IMG/VR virus record: IMGVR_UViG_3300042894_003945
Location: 1 to 64,000 of that record
DNA length: 64,000 nt
Source of the DNA: a virus
Strand: one strand, 5' to 3'
Shown here: piece after piece, positions 31,394 through 38,945 of the stretch
Numbering within the stretch: position 1 is the stretch's first letter
How the letters are laid out: each line of letters begins with the position of its first letter
Position numbers and translations under genes: made by a program
Notes under the pieces: generated by a model
Database searches by the model: none
What the model was told of the DNA's origin: nothing
What the model saw: only the letters and a program-made list of their open reading frames with translations

Positions 31394-33673
31394 TTATGCG
31401 TATTTTGTATCTGTTCTTTTCTGGGCTATCCCTATTCCTATTCCGTCTACTTGTAGCACTATGTTATTTTGTATAACTGTATCTTTTTGATTAGCTCCTA
31501 AAGTTTTATCATCTCTCCTATCAGTATTATTCATTTGATTGAACGCACTTGAGCCTTCTACCCTTCTATCAGTATTGTTCATCTGTGGAGTAGGGTATGC
31601 AGTGTTTGGAGCGGAAGGCATAATAGCAGCGGAAGTATTTAAATTAGGAACAACAGAATTAGCTCCTACTTGTGGAGTATATTGAGTATCTTTTCCTGAC
31701 TCGGAGGCGGCAGCTGATATCCCTGCAACAGCGGCTACTCCTGCTAATCCTCCTAAAACTAAAGATAGGCCTCCAGTAGCCATAGCCATAGCTGTTGCTA
31801 AGGATACTGCCAAACCTACTATCACCCCTAAAACTGCTTTTAAAGCAGTGGTATTAGATAAGAACTTTACAATCCCTTCTATAATTTTGATCATAGGACC
31901 AGCAGCCATTTCTGTAAAAAGCTGCTTAATTCTTTCAACAGATTCTTCAAATCTTTTTTGTAAATCTGCTCTAGCTATATCCTGCAATAAAACCTCTCCG
32001 CCTTCTTTTTTTCTTGCTTCTTCCATTAGAGCAGCCATTCCTGCTGTATCATTTCTAGATCTAAGCAAGGCATACTGCTCTTCTAAAGCTTGTTTATTTT
32101 GAAATCCTAATTTATTTAAAACCTCTTGCTCTCTAGCAGCTTTTGTTAACTCTTCTGCTGACATACCTATTGAAGCTGCTAATCTGTCTCTTTGAATAAC
32201 ATTAAGATTTGTTAAACCATTCAGACCCCCCATTTGGTCCATTAACTCTTTAGCAGCTTCTACAGATTTACCATCCAAAGCTAACGCTCTAGCTTTTTCA
32301 AAGTTGAACCTTTTACCTATTAACAACTCAGCTTCTAATTCTCCTGCTATAGATGTTTCAAAATCTAAAAGACTTTTAGAAATTTTTTGTGTTTGTTCTA
32401 AAGATAATCCTAATTTATTTGCTTCTATTACTGCTTTAGCAATTAAATCCGGATTGTTTTTATACATTACAGATATTTCGGAATTGATTTTAGAAATATC
32501 TGATATTATTTTTCTATATGATATTGCTGTCGTGTTTTGCTTTATTGCATTTTGTAAAATATCATCAGCTGATTTTCCAGATAACAAAGATATTTTTTGT
32601 ATTCCTGCTGATTCTTCTTTAGAAAGTCCCATTTGTTTTGTTAACAAAATTTGACTTTGTACCATTTTAGAAGTAAATAAAGAGTTTGTCTCTAAAACTT
32701 CCTGTAGCTCTGCTGTAGCAGCGACTTGGTTTTTTACTGATAAAAAAGCAGAATCTAGTCCCTTTACTATGTTTCTGTTTTCATTAGATATCTGTCTGAA
32801 GTTATCTAATATTCCTATAGCTGAGTTTCTAGTAATACCTAAATTATTACTAATTTGTACTAGTTGCTTATCAAAATCAAAAGCTAATTTTACTAATGCT
32901 TTTATAGCAGCTGCTACTGCGGCTATAGCAACTAAGATTAGAAACAAAGGGCTTTTTACCACTCGCATTATTTCACTTCCTAAAGCACTAAAACCCTCTC
33001 TACTGCTTACTTTAAACGCATCAGATATTTTCTTAAAGTCCATAAAGTCTTTTAAGAAAGGTATTCCAGTCATAGAACCAAATATCTTAGCCAATGCACT
33101 AGCTTTTAATTGAGCTTCTTTTACTTTAGCGTTCCCTTTATCTAATAAATCATTTAATTTTTTTAATTCTTCAGCATTTAATTCTCTTGCATTTTTCTCT
33201 TTCATTAAAACATAAAGAGCTTGTTCATCGGCAGTTACTTTTTTTCTTACTTTCTTATCTGTTGATTCAACTCTTTTCTCAATGTCTGCATACATAGTCT
33301 TTAGATCTTGTGCAGGCTTATTACTTTTTTGCAGAGATTTATTTATATCATTTTGTATTTTGTCTATATTAGTCTGTATAACTTGTGTCTCAATTGAATT
33401 TGCATTTATTCTGGATTGTATAATTTCCTGATCTATATATTCTCTGCCTATCTTGGACGCTAAATTTCTAGTATCGTCTAATGCGTGTTTTAAATCAGTA
33501 GAGAGTTCAAAAGATGTTTTTAATAAAGTAGAACTTTTTTTAAATTCTTTTGATAAATCTTTAACAGCGTCTACAGAAGTCAATACGTTAGCCCTAATCT
33601 TAGTTATTTCAGTAGCGACATCTCTAGCTCCCTTAAGTGTATCATCAAAAGACCCTGTTCCTGAATTGGTCAT
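31394..33673 (-). CDS. Tape measure protein
   Basis: 759 residues. The first 200 form long charged helices and coiled coils. Two hydrophobic Ala/Val/Ile-rich stretches (FLILVAIAAVAAAIKALVK near 235-260 and a Gly/Ala-rich one near 610-660) are typical of tape measures that later cross the host membrane. The C-terminus is Asn/Thr-rich with a repeated MNNTDRR. It lies after the two chaperone genes, the standard order. At roughly 1.5 angstrom per residue the tail would be near 110 nm (inference). A late promoter element and a terminator lie directly upstream. Confidence 0.85.
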   Translation of the reverse strand: MTNSGTGSFDDTLKGARDVATEITKIRANVLTSVDAVKDLSKEFKKSSTLLKTSFELSTDLKHALDDTRNLASKIGREYIDQEIIQSRINANSIETQVIQTNIDKIQNDINKSLQKSNKPAQDLKTMYADIEKRVESTDKKVRKKVTADEQALYVLMKEKNARELNAEELKKLNDLLDKGNAKVKEAQLKASALAKIFGSMTGIPFLKDFMDFKKISDAFKVSSREGFSALGSEIMRVVKSPLFLILVAIAAVAAAIKALVKLAFDFDKQLVQISNNLGITRNSAIGILDNFRQISNENRNIVKGLDSAFLSVKNQVAATAELQEVLETNSLFTSKMVQSQILLTKQMGLSKEESAGIQKISLLSGKSADDILQNAIKQNTTAISYRKIISDISKINSEISVMYKNNPDLIAKAVIEANKLGLSLEQTQKISKSLLDFETSIAGELEAELLIGKRFNFEKARALALDGKSVEAAKELMDQMGGLNGLTNLNVIQRDRLAASIGMSAEELTKAAREQEVLNKLGFQNKQALEEQYALLRSRNDTAGMAALMEEARKKEGGEVLLQDIARADLQKRFEESVERIKQLFTEMAAGPMIKIIEGIVKFLSNTTALKAVLGVIVGLAVSLATAMAMATGGLSLVLGGLAGVAAVAGISAAASESGKDTQYTPQVGANSVVPNLNTSAAIMPSAPNTAYPTPQMNNTDRRVEGSSAFNQMNNTDRRDDKTLGANQKDTVIQNNIVLQVDGIGIGIAQKRTDTKYA

Positions 33674-33699: not shown

Positions 33700-33723
33700 A
33701 GCCGCTATTTTTTACTAGCGGCT
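33700..33723 (-). terminator. Hairpin terminator overlapping the chaperone stop codon
   Basis: An 8-bp perfect stem (33700-33707 with 33716-33723, minus-strand AGCCGCTA/TAGCGGCT) and an 8-base loop, followed on the minus strand by TTAATATTT. The stem begins within the last codons of the 94-residue gene (stop at 33705-33707). The T tract is weak, so partial termination is likely. Confidence 0.65.
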
Positions 33724-33989
33724 CTAGGGGATACGTAATCTGCCATATGTTCTTTTCTCTTGGCTAGGTCTTCCATGTTTAAGGTAGTACCTTTATTTTG
33801 TGCTTTTTCTATTTCATCATTATGTTTTTTAATGATATCAGATAGTTTTTTTATATTCATAAGCCTATATGATGCAGGCATATGGTAGGCTTGTTGATAA
33901 GATATTGCACCTTGGCTATTCATTGATAACCAAAGCAATTCATCAAACATATAATTTCTATACTCCGAACTCAGGCCAAAAAAAGTCAA
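33705..33989 (-). CDS. Tail assembly chaperone, distal part (gpT-like), probably made by frameshift
   Basis: The frame is open for 94 codons from a TTG at 33989; the first ATG is only at codon 14. GLSSEYRNYMFDELLWLSMN and then QGAISYQQAYHMPASYR match the second-frame partner of tail-assembly chaperones (lambda T position), which joins the upstream protein through a programmed frameshift. It overlaps the upstream gene by 32 bases that contain a run of seven T (33978-33984). There is no good independent start, and it lies right before the tape measure. A separate protein from TTG or the inner ATG is possible but less likely. Confidence 0.7.
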   Translation of the reverse strand: MTFFGLSSEYRNYMFDELLWLSMNSQGAISYQQAYHMPASYRLMNIKKLSDIIKKHNDEIEKAQNKGTTLNMEDLAKRKEHMADYVSPRAASKK

Positions 33990-34722
33990 CAGTCATGGGT
34001 AGACTAAGGCCCTCCACAACCTCTCCATTAACAGTTGTAAAATCAAACTTCATTACTATGTCTGGGGTATTGTCTGCTATGTTTTTTCTAAGGCTTTGAG
34101 AATCCCTTATAGGCATTGTTTTGATAAAATCTCTAACTACTTTTTTATCTCTATCCCCATCCACCGCTACTATTGAATGTGCAAGTCTTACTGTAACGTC
34201 TGAAGAAAGGTTCTTATTTACCTTTTGTAACCCTCTTATCTCTGCATCAATAGCCATTTCATCCTTATGGGTAGCTATTTTATAAGTTATTAACTTACCT
34301 GACATAGGGAGCTGGTAATTAAATTCATTAACTCCTTTTTTAACTTTATCCCAATCTATCTCTTTTTCCTTTAATGTAGATAAATCTACCGTAACCTCTT
34401 CAGGTACTGTTGATCCTGCCGGAGTATATTTAAAAGGGTACTTGCTACCATATGCTAATATCCTAGCTCCTATCATGATAGCGTTTTTATCTCCTATAAG
34501 AAGATCATTGTAGTCAATTTTACTTGCTATAATAGCCTGTAAAAACTTGTCAATAACTACTCCTTGTTGAATAAAGTTTCTATTTGTTAAGATGTCTTCA
34601 TGCATTGCAGTAGGTAGGTATAACTCAACTTGTCCTGAACTTAGGGGGCTGCTTTCTGGGTAGAGGAACCCTTTTGAGGGAAGGTCTAAAGGTTGTGTCG
34701 GAACATTCATTAAATCTGCCAT
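33958..34722 (-). CDS. T4-type baseplate/tail assembly protein (gp26-like), proximal chaperone
   Basis: 254 residues. PLDLPSKGFLYPESSPLSSG opens the family of T4 baseplate proteins (PF12322-like), followed by a T-x-x-x-E-D-I-L-T helix and LLIGDKNAIMIGARILAYG. The protein is soluble and ends WPEFGV just past a T7 run. By position (before the second chaperone frame and the tape measure) it acts like lambda gpG: it would chaperone the tape measure and recruit tube subunits. A late promoter lies upstream at 34738-34748. Confidence 0.75.
   Translation of the reverse strand: MADLMNVPTQPLDLPSKGFLYPESSPLSSGQVELYLPTAMHEDILTNRNFIQQGVVIDKFLQAIIASKIDYNDLLIGDKNAIMIGARILAYGSKYPFKYTPAGSTVPEEVTVDLSTLKEKEIDWDKVKKGVNEFNYQLPMSGKLITYKIATHKDEMAIDAEIRGLQKVNKNLSSDVTVRLAHSIVAVDGDRDKKVVRDFIKTMPIRDSQSLRKNIADNTPDIVMKFDFTTVNGEVVEGLSLPMTVDFFWPEFGV
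33978..33984 (-). other. Slippery T7 run, candidate programmed frameshift site
   Basis: The minus strand reads GTTGACTTTTTTTGGCCTGAG. In the upstream frame it is GAC-TTT-TTT-TGG, and the downstream chaperone frame reads ACT-TTT-TTT-GGC. A +1 slip of tRNA-Phe on the run (or a -2 slip) moves ribosomes from the 254-residue frame, which ends 18 bases later, into the 94-codon frame. The fused product would be about 335 residues. Confidence 0.6.
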
Positions 34723-35502: not shown

Positions 35503-36093
35503 TTAGAAACCTTCCTCAGTAAAAATCTTCTCAATTCTCTTAGGAAGTTTTTTATAATTCATATTAAATCTAGGAGACATAGCTTCTATAAGCTTTTTAT
35601 TACTGTAAGGACTGTTTTTGGTAGTACACCACCTCCTAGAAATCAACATATAGTTGTAAAAATGCACATATGAATTAGCTTTCTTGGTATAATTTTCAAT
35701 ATCAATAGGCAATTCAAAATCTTTTATTAGCTGAACAGACCTTTTTTCATTGTCTAACTCCAGATCTCTACAGTTTGCTATGTGTTTTTTTATATTTACT
35801 ACGCTATTTCCTTCTAACCAGTAATCTAGTAAAGCCATACTCTTCATACAGGCTTTCCATAAAGGAATCTGTTCTTTCCATTGAGTCAGGTGACAATACT
35901 CATGGACTAATATTTCTACAGAATCCTTCCTACCCATAGAACAAACTAAGGTAGGTACAGTTTCGTCAAAATATCCTGAGGCTTTTATAGAATTGGTGAC
36001 TTTTACATACTTTGTCTTCCTTAAATCGCATTTAACGCCTTCTTTTCGGCATTCTGCCTTAACAAAAGCGATAAAGTACTTAAGTTTATCCAT
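35503..36093 (-). CDS. Putative zinc metallopeptidase-like protein (HExxH)
   Basis: 196 residues. SVEILVHEYCHLTQWKEQ contains HEYCH at 64-68, a gluzincin-type HExxH helix, and a conserved-looking acidic LELDNEK at 111-117 supplies a candidate third ligand (E112 or E116). The surrounding helices and a strand upstream (VPTLVCSMG) suit a small metallopeptidase fold. It is encoded between tail tube and tail chaperone genes, so processing of a tail or host protein is possible. Peptidase activity is not proven. A terminator hairpin with an embedded late element precedes it. Confidence 0.65.
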   Translation of the reverse strand: MDKLKYFIAFVKAECRKEGVKCDLRKTKYVKVTNSIKASGYFDETVPTLVCSMGRKDSVEILVHEYCHLTQWKEQIPLWKACMKSMALLDYWLEGNSVVNIKKHIANCRDLELDNEKRSVQLIKDFELPIDIENYTKKANSYVHFYNYMLISRRWCTTKNSPYSNKKLIEAMSPRFNMNYKKLPKRIEKIFTEEGF

Positions 36094-36160: not shown

Positions 36161-36652
36161 TTAGAAGTTCAAGACCATTCCTGAGTTTCCTAATGTCATT
36201 TCTATTGTGGTGTAGGCGTCCAAAGACCAGTCCCAATCACCAAAAGAAGATACATTCTTAATGTAAGCCTTCTTGATTACCCACTCATTCACTATGTTTC
36301 CTACAGGATCGATAGCGTTGAAGGTAATGTCTTTCCAGTAGAAGTCACCGTAGCCAGCACGACCTGTTACAGTTTCGTAACCAAGTCTAGCCCATTCCAT
36401 AACTGCCTGCGCACCTGAAGGAGACACTGGGTTATAGAGACTAAGGGTTACATCATTCCATCTACGCTTAGCACGAAACTTCACGTATGAGTTGATGTTG
36501 TCGATGATAACTTCTCCATCATCGTATCCTATACCTCCTACCTTTTTGATCAGGTAGGAAGGGACTCCTTGTATATACATTATGAATCTATGTTGGAGGA
36601 TTGGTTCAAACAATGTGCCCAACATTTCATCGGGAGTACTAAGTATTGCCAT
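36161..36652 (-). CDS. Tail tube protein (T4 gp19-like)
   Basis: 163 residues, the usual size of T4-type tube subunits. EPILQHRFIMYIQGVPSYLI is the N-terminal strand pair. A segment with KFRAKRRWNDVTLSLYNPVS and then a WARLGYETVTGRAGYG stretch matches the gp19 core (strand, then the helix before the second sheet), and the C-terminal WDWSLDAYTTIEMTLG is a conserved strand. It polymerises into the inner tube around the tape measure. It follows the sheath gene by 34 bases and has its own late element. Confidence 0.92.
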   Translation of the reverse strand: MAILSTPDEMLGTLFEPILQHRFIMYIQGVPSYLIKKVGGIGYDDGEVIIDNINSYVKFRAKRRWNDVTLSLYNPVSPSGAQAVMEWARLGYETVTGRAGYGDFYWKDITFNAIDPVGNIVNEWVIKKAYIKNVSSFGDWDWSLDAYTTIEMTLGNSGMVLNF

Positions 36653-36686: not shown

Positions 36687-38945
36687 TTATCCGAAATTAA
36701 CCCCAGTAGCTGTGATATTGAATTCCAACAAGATGAATTCGATAGACTTCACAGGAGATACGTAGATCTTACCTACGAGTTGGTTACGATCGATTACATC
36801 ATTAGTATTCAAAGTATCATCAATCTGAATACGGAAGGCATACAAACCTTGACGAGATTGTACACTCTCCATGTAAGGAGTTATTGCTGAGATAAGATTA
36901 TTCCTAGTGGCAATAGTATTATTCTCAAACACATAGTTAAGAGCAACTCCGCTAATGTATTCACGTAAGTTGATTAACAATCTACGAACGTTGATACGAT
37001 TCAAAGCTGTATCTCTAACTTGTAGAGTCTTCTGACCCCAGATTACTACTCCGCTAGTTTGGAATTTAGCAATTGGGTTAACTCTACCATTGTAAAGAGC
37101 ATCTCTATCCGCCTTAGTCAGACGTATACGAGTGTCTATTGCTCCACCAAGACCTCCACGGTTAAGACCAGCAGGAGCAAACCACTCGGCAGCTACTCTG
37201 TCATTATATGCGTAAGCTTGTGGAACTATTACAGTTGGAGGAACGAATATATCTTTAGTGCTATTCAAATCCTTAACTTTAACCCAAGGATAGTAAGCAG
37301 CGCTGTAGCTAGAATCAAGACCAGCAGCAGTAGCTACCGCAGTAACAACTGTAGAGTTTAGACCTGTAAGATCACGGAGATATACCGCATCAGTACGCTC
37401 TTCGCACATATTCTCTGCAAGGAGTGTTACAGGCGAGTGATACTCTTCAATTACACCAGGCAAAGCCAACAAATCAAAGTTATACTCTTCTACATTAGAT
37501 AGAATGTCTATAGCTTTTTGATAAGATGCAGCTCCGGCAGCAGTTCCGCTAGATAAATTAAATCCAAACAAGTTAGATGCTGATATATCTTTTCCTTTCT
37601 TCTTTATAGTAGTGATGTTCATACCATCAGTACCACCTTGGAAAGGAAGCATAAATTTGTTATCTGCACCAGGCTTGGTGAAAGCTACGTTAGAACCAGT
37701 GCCAGCTCCTAGAGGAAGTGGGTTCAAATAGTTCCAGTTATCGCCATTAGAGTAATCAAATCCAGAGAATGAAACACTAGCAGCAGTGCTACTAAGCATT
37801 ACTGCAGCTGGTAAGAACTTACCACTAAATCCAGCAATTGGCTCATACAAAGCCTCATGTCCATTTGGATAAAGTTGAGGGAAGATAGCGCCATCAGCAA
37901 CTCCTTCAGCAAGTTCTACACGAATATAGTTAGATCTGCTATCAAAATCACCGTATTGAATAACTTTAGCAAGAGTTACGTTGTATTCAGAATACTTGTC
38001 TCCGATTGCTTTTGCTATATAATTAGGTGCATTTGGATCTAAAGAAACTCCTACAAATTGTTCGATTATAGATGGAGCCCTGTCAATATCATTCCACTGA
38101 CGTACTATGACATCAAATGTAGAATAATCTGCAGCTGTAGCTCCTTGACTAATGTTGTCTATACCAACTTTAATATCTTTGTTGGTTTTCAAACCATCAG
38201 ACCTGTGGTGGAACTTAAACAACTTAACTCCACTATCAGAAACAACCCATGGAGTAGATGCGTGATCATATCCTCCAGGATTAGAGCTAGTGAACTCACA
38301 GTTAGTAGCTGTGAATACTAATGAGTCGTTTATGCTTCCAGTATAAGAACCGTTAACAGCAAGCGCACTTCCTGTGATGTGGTTACTAAATAATAAATAA
38401 GGGAATACGGAACCAGTTTGATAGTTCTCATCTGTACCCAATACTTTAGATATATAAGTAGCAGAGGTTGGATTTAATGAAGCGCTGAAAGAAGAACTGA
38501 AAGCTCCACTTCCACTGTAGCCTATAAAAAATCCATTGAAAGCATTATAAGTGCCTCCTACGAAAGAAGCGGTACCTATACCTACTGCTGCAGTATCGTT
38601 CTTAGTTGGGTAAATTACACTAAGGATAGTGCTACCGCTAATTATAGCTGCTAAAGGTCTAGTATTAGTGTATATGTATCCACCATTACCAAGTATTCTA
38701 GTTACTTTTGCTGTATTTCCAGCTTGTAAGTAACTATAAACAGTTTGCGGAACATAGCTGTTTGCACCATCGGCACCAAACAACGCAGTAAATTGGCTGT
38801 AGCTAGTAACGTCTACTGGAACGAAAGCAGGGCCTTTTTCAGTAGGTCCTACTACAGCAAGGCCTGTTTGTTCAGTACCTTGAGAGTAGAAGCTCTGATC
38901 GTTTTCGTAGGCATAGACGCCAGCGGAAAGAATTTGTTCTGTCAT
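36687..38945 (-). CDS. Contractile tail sheath protein (gp18-like)
   Basis: 752 residues. The start SAGVYAYENDQSFYSQG, followed by a TGLAVVGPTEKGPAFVPVDV stretch, is the classic N-terminal arm and first domain of sheath proteins. The middle (residues ~100-480) is a variable Ser/Gly-rich insertion. The C-terminal part has a VIWGQKTLQVRDTALNRINV stretch and a RRLLINLREYISG helix, the conserved sheath core used in the mesh contacts. Neighbouring tube gene confirms the role. Its start codon lies in one arm of a 15-bp inverted repeat. Confidence 0.96.
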   Translation of the reverse strand: MTEQILSAGVYAYENDQSFYSQGTEQTGLAVVGPTEKGPAFVPVDVTSYSQFTALFGADGANSYVPQTVYSYLQAGNTAKVTRILGNGGYIYTNTRPLAAIISGSTILSVIYPTKNDTAAVGIGTASFVGGTYNAFNGFFIGYSGSGAFSSSFSASLNPTSATYISKVLGTDENYQTGSVFPYLLFSNHITGSALAVNGSYTGSINDSLVFTATNCEFTSSNPGGYDHASTPWVVSDSGVKLFKFHHRSDGLKTNKDIKVGIDNISQGATAADYSTFDVIVRQWNDIDRAPSIIEQFVGVSLDPNAPNYIAKAIGDKYSEYNVTLAKVIQYGDFDSRSNYIRVELAEGVADGAIFPQLYPNGHEALYEPIAGFSGKFLPAAVMLSSTAASVSFSGFDYSNGDNWNYLNPLPLGAGTGSNVAFTKPGADNKFMLPFQGGTDGMNITTIKKKGKDISASNLFGFNLSSGTAAGAASYQKAIDILSNVEEYNFDLLALPGVIEEYHSPVTLLAENMCEERTDAVYLRDLTGLNSTVVTAVATAAGLDSSYSAAYYPWVKVKDLNSTKDIFVPPTVIVPQAYAYNDRVAAEWFAPAGLNRGGLGGAIDTRIRLTKADRDALYNGRVNPIAKFQTSGVVIWGQKTLQVRDTALNRINVRRLLINLREYISGVALNYVFENNTIATRNNLISAITPYMESVQSRQGLYAFRIQIDDTLNTNDVIDRNQLVGKIYVSPVKSIEFILLEFNITATGVNFG

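Follow-up and report, generated by a model that had tools for sequence, protein, structure and literature searches.

The window, a stretch of 64,000 nucleotides (positions 1 to 64,000 of the 136,878-base IMG/VR virus record IMGVR_UViG_3300042894_003945), carries on its minus strand a tail assembly chaperone gene, found as a single copy at the sensitivity of the search used, in which two overlapping open reading frames (ORF1 and ORF2) meet at a run of seven T's (Table 1). ORF1 ends in the codons CCC ATG ACT GTT GAC TTT TTT TGG CCT GAG TTC GGA GTA TAG, its stop beginning 18 bases past the run, as had been described in a first-pass annotation made from the letters of the DNA alone. The same annotation held that the +1 frame lacks a good start, and this description stands: a TGA precedes CTG TTG ACT TTT TTT GGC CTG AGT, the frame is then open to 33705 and, with counting begun at the TTG, does not offer an ATG until codon 14.

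Table 1. The chaperone junction and the neighboring tail genes in the window
Feature	Coordinates	Strand	Basis
ORF1, tail assembly chaperone N domain (gpG-like/T4 gp26-like, PF12322 T4_baseplate), 254 amino acids	33958..34722	-	Pfam and PHROG matches; relatives
Slip site: seven-T run, TTT TTT TGG in the ORF1 frame; first UUU_U is the proposed P-site slip codon	33978..33984	-	Sequence and 245 relatives
GAC codon preceding the T run; third base not T	33985..33987	-	T at that base in 1/245 relatives
ORF1 stop TAG, ends the unshifted product	33958..33960	-	Sequence
ORF2, +1 frame from GGC: chaperone C domain (gpT-like, gp51-tail-like), 90 amino acids; stop 33707-33705	33708..33977	-	Conservation, profile match, helix pattern
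Tape-measure-like protein, 759 amino acids, directly downstream	31394..33673	-	Position and length
Tail tube protein, upstream	36161..36652	-	phrog_4542, E 2e-12
Tail sheath protein, upstream	36687..38945	-	PF04984, E 1e-14; phrog_23, E 6e-72

This arrangement is widely represented in IMG/VR. The best 80 loci, gathered by the ORF1 protein and independently of the motif, display TTTTTTTGGCCTGA, or TTTCTTTGGCCTGA in one of them, with the same frame relation, the ORF1 stop a few codons on and ORF2 in +1. That it is more than a chance feature is indicated by a scan of the database with the 14-mer TTTTTTTGGCCTGA by sequence alone: at least 120 places were recovered, and 114 of the 120 among the matches listed are this junction in the same gene family; the CTT form of the 14-mer also occurs in at least 120 places, 47 of the 120 among the matches listed being this junction. 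Two further protein-based scans brought the total to 355 distinct junctions, which read TTT TTT TGG (270), TTT CTT TGG (66), TTT CTA TGG (4) or CTT TTT TGG (3), have TAC (three) or TTC (one) instead of TGG, or are distant or outlying rows (eight); as the 14-mer and CTT sets were drawn by motif, these counts do not sample the TTT and CTT forms at random. ORF2 lies in +1 in all 340 junctions in which it was detected. Homopolymers are prone to sequencing and assembly errors, which, like decay of the gene, might mimic such a junction; however, hundreds of independent contigs, as well as the sequenced isolates Mel-JY01 (a Microcystis phage) and immuto (a Flavobacterium phage), share both site and frame, which refutes this explanation.

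From these junctions we reconstructed 330 fusions, and 245 non-redundant members (less than 85% identical around the site) reveal strong constraint on the run itself. Its first codon is TTT in 242 and CTT in three, and never TTC, which accounts for 20% of the Phe codons elsewhere in ORF1; its second codon is TTT in 205, CTT in 38 and CTA in two, and never TTA, the commonest Leu codon, at half of the total. The third base of the codon before the run is T in a single member, versus 126 ± 7 expected from codon usage; this figure counts sequences rather than events that arose independently, yet the departure is very large. In a tree of 134 members the TTT and CTT states interchanged at least seven times, with +1 re-pairing kept by both. 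Past the run, the +1-frame protein is conserved from its first residue (GLT.EYR..LF.QIHEIVFHG.GGYDW.TVYNMPIWLR), and the GGCCTGA that follows the run is largely fixed, apparently because two proteins are read through the same bases, as reasoned from the codons. The alignment among relatives that the first-pass annotation called for thus finds that the T-run site is kept, as are the relation of the two frames and the protein encoded past the run. The loss of the run, which it had named as a refuting outcome, did not occur, save for CTT, rare CTA and the four TAC or TTC A-site variants, in which the tRNA on the first UUU can still re-pair at +1.

Could ORF2 instead be a separate gene, started at the TTG, at the inner ATG or by re-initiation past the ORF1 stop? 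Both the TTG and the ATG are present in the window, most members share a conserved ATG (in the NMP motif) about 32 codons in, and annotators have called short ORFs at this place in cyanophages. However, the TTG of the window, which had been considered as an alternative start, is not conserved among relatives; in a third of the members (110 of 330) no ATG, GTG or TTG occurs up to and including the junction, and in three the entire ORF2 frame lacks one. Moreover, the conservation beginning at the first residue past the run, the fixation of synonymous ORF1 bases at the run and the in-frame fusion of a homologous domain in T4 gp51 (see below) make a separate gene very improbable. Slippage of the RNA polymerase on the T run, yielding mRNAs with six or eight U's, is just as improbable: a seven-base homopolymer is near the length at which the polymerase can slip, but about one-sixth of the members interrupt the run (TTTCTTT or TTTCTA) with ORF2 still in +1, and the run is hardly ever lengthened by a T directly before it, both of which argue against such slippage.

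The two frames code for the two domains of a single chaperone family. ORF1 matches PF12322 (E 8e-6; 26.1 bits against a cutoff of 24.5), a family to which both gp26 and gp51 of phage T4 also belong by the same profile, and phrog_150, annotated as baseplate hub (E 4e-7). That the second frame encodes a gpT-like domain, as first suggested, is borne out by profile homology to the T domains that other T4-like phages encode in the -1 frame, and of those to the gp51 tail: a profile of the -1-frame domains recovers ORF2 of the window clade with an hhalign probability of 96% (95.7%; E 9e-9) and the last 50 residues of T4-like gp51 with 97% (E 2e-11), and in both comparisons none of 200 column shuffles did as well. 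The direct profile match between the window-clade ORF2 and the T4 gp51 tail is weak (27 of 300 shuffles as good, and 2 of 300 with added members), so that this homology is clear only via the domains that cyanophages and other T4-like phages encode in -1. T4 gp26 is without the C-terminal tail that gp51 carries. The predicted helices agree in a long-short-long pattern (gp51 206-221, 226-230 and 234-248; ORF2 6-22, 29-33 and 37-63), and ORF2 folded alone gives a helical predicted model (pLDDT 71); a fold search of PDB with a gp51 model returned no match (best E 0.35).

Taken together, the junction is real and functional, and most likely a case of programmed +1 frameshifting, in a gene of a familiar type. 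We consider it very probable, judging from the sequence comparisons, that a programmed +1 slip on the U run yields a long chaperone carrying the ORF2 domain. Most ribosomes would complete ORF1 to give the short, gpG-like N-domain chaperone, and a minority would slip one base forward on the U run with peptidyl-tRNA-Phe on UUU, which, with U or C next, could re-pair with UUU or UUC; the shifted ribosomes would then read GGC CUG AGU onward to produce a 338-residue fusion with the gpT-like C domain. By analogy with phage lambda, the short form may coat the tape measure, with the fusion recruiting tail tube subunits, and their roles in tail assembly are suggested here on that analogy. Consistent with a +1 slip, the slip codon can re-pair one base downstream, being UUU_Y in nearly all members and CUU_U in three, and the invariance of the third T of the run fits a slip on the first UUU. 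A classical -1 slip on an X_XXY_YYZ heptamer finds no match here, given the invariable +1 position of ORF2 and the near absence of T before the run; indeed, with no T at that base, the window has no T_TTT_TTT heptamer.

The first-pass annotation had left the step as +1 or -2, and its placement of the slip at the T run is supported. A -2 slip on the U run would generate the same fusion with one extra Phe, as is reported for phage Mu (PMC5009743); seven T's let the P-site UUU move two bases back onto UUU, so that TTT TTT runs permit re-pairing in either direction, and this slip, too, agrees with the constancy of the third T. What separates the two are the TTT CTA members, namely LR756508 and several contigs, together with phage GXN1 (TTC TTT CGT), where normal pairing gives the P-site tRNAs no good match two bases upstream but a +1 move of tRNA-Phe, UUU to UUC, is open to every one of them, and the TTT CTT members, in which a -2 slip would require a Leu tRNA on UUC. 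These favor +1 and leave -2 unlikely, the direction being narrowed by comparison rather than by proof. We infer production of the fusion, a step of +1 rather than -2, and slippage at the first UUU.

Several observations weigh against this +1 interpretation. The T7 run itself offers plausible -2 re-pairing, and in LIS04, a member of a distant group, -2 accounts for the site no less well than +1. Unlike prfB, the site has a sense codon (UGG) in the zero-frame A-site; it is conserved, but also fixed by the dual coding. Two-thirds of the members possess an ATG, GTG or TTG in the frame of ORF2 no later than the junction. As for stimulators, downstream RNA structure is not conserved across the clade (mean z 0.19 and -0.58), and a Shine-Dalgarno-like element upstream is not consistent, being seen in 23 of the 245 members. 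The window does have an 11-base-pair hairpin at 33908-33974, about 38 nucleotides past the T run (z -2.5), which we rejected as a stimulator for want of a clade-wide structure signal.

Frameshifting between the two chaperone parts is known and usually -1, and remote homologues of the very gene studied here agree with the earlier remark that +1 is the unusual direction. A classical -1 heptamer, NNT TTT TTC, lies at the ORF1 end in the cyanophages DSL-LC02, S-RSM4, P-SSM7 and S-SSM6a, and in Aeromonas phage phiAS5, Stenotrophomonas phage Bhz51, Agrobacterium phage Atu_ph07 and PA5oct, with the second domain in -1; variants of this site are GAT TTT TTT in pf16 and GAT TTT TTC, slightly farther from the stop, in OLIVR5. 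In T4, the second domain is fused in frame in gp51, and gp26 is the short form. The ORF1 tree needs three changes among the +1, -1 and split states and groups the T4 pairs together, its deep branches being long and partly unresolved. These comparisons support the view that a large, mostly uncultured group of T4-like phages uses +1 at a fixed U run, with relatives using -1 or, in T4, two genes. More tentatively, and with somewhat less than even confidence, we propose that the base before the U run sets the direction, a T allowing a tandem -1 slip on T_TTT_TTC and any other base a single P-site +1 slip on UUU_Y; in this reading one family switched from -1 to +1, and a large uncultured phage clade retains a stimulator-free +1 site on sense codons.

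Among known systems, the closest in layout is lambda gpG/gpGT (Xu, Hendrix and Duda 2004; reviewed in PMC5009743), which likewise has a short and a frameshift-extended chaperone between tube and tape measure; however, lambda uses -1, whereas ORF2 of the window clade lies in +1 and T_TTT_TTT is avoided. T4 gp26/gp51 share with the window clade the protein family and the C domain, but T4 has two genes, the cyanophages and other T4-like phages use -1 on T_TTT_TTC, and the window clade +1. The +1 site of prfB (release factor 2; CUU_UGA_C) resembles the CTT_TGG_C of about one-sixth of the members, the P-site tRNA being able to re-pair on UUU one base on; it differs in that the window clade has a sense codon (UGG) and no stop codon in the A-site, no consistent Shine-Dalgarno-like stimulator and no sign of autoregulation. 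The haloarchaeal myovirus HSTV-2 (suggested +1) and phage Mu (-2) also gain access to a second chaperone domain by a step other than -1, their proteins being compared by description only; in contrast to the clade reported here, the available text of PMC5009743 describes no large conserved set of sites for them. That review gives the G-T frameshift as conserved in long-tailed phages except T4, with -1, -2 and +1 all in use among different phages. In some T4-like phages short and long chaperone genes replace the frameshift (Vladimirov, Gautam and Davidson 2022, Virology 566:9, as cited in PMC10885494 and PMC12846349); the T4 gp26/gp51 split was thus already published in 2022. As far as could be checked, what is new is that a whole clade has switched to +1 and uses a fixed site; we found no paper describing +1 sites in this chaperone family, which is weak evidence of novelty, since subscription literature lay mostly outside the search.

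As homologous genes use -1, +1 or two genes, the direction of frameshifting becomes comparable within a single protein family. The hundreds of natural +1 sites, some with a prfB-like CUU_U, render the rules of sense-codon +1 slippage testable in simple reporters. Furthermore, public annotation misses or truncates the second chaperone domain in many of these phages.

The gene order in the window (sheath, tube, two small genes, ORF1/ORF2 and the tape-measure position) places ORF1 between tail tube and tape measure, and immuto and LIS04 are annotated in the same order. The tape-measure-like protein has no family match in Pfam and PHROG searches; the protein at its position is annotated as tail tape measure protein in both phages. 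No tRNA genes were found in the window. Inside the tail cluster, a gene for a 196-residue protein (35503-36093) shows weak similarity to SprT-like metallopeptidases (E 0.03).

Some further observations concern relatives of the chaperone gene. One lies in JACAFS010000073.1, a 4-kb contig binned in a Thaumarchaeota metagenome-assembled genome, and is probably on a phage contig within that bin. The phages of Gram-positive hosts GXN1, SP-15 and LIS04 have a common NCC CGA TT where the two frames overlap; this second motif with dual coding lies close to the +1 junction, and a slip may also occur there. In Salmonella phage SJ2 (L516, 2241), Vibrio phage D508 (L515, 2223) and Cygsa01 (L509, 3309), the second domain lies in -1 at ATT TTC or CTT TTC rather than T_TTT_TTC. 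Finally, cyanophage genes annotated as gp51 (L511, 2265-2399; L512, 2301-2396; 45 and 32 codons with the stop) represent only pieces of the second domain in the -1 frame, the start having been called inside it.
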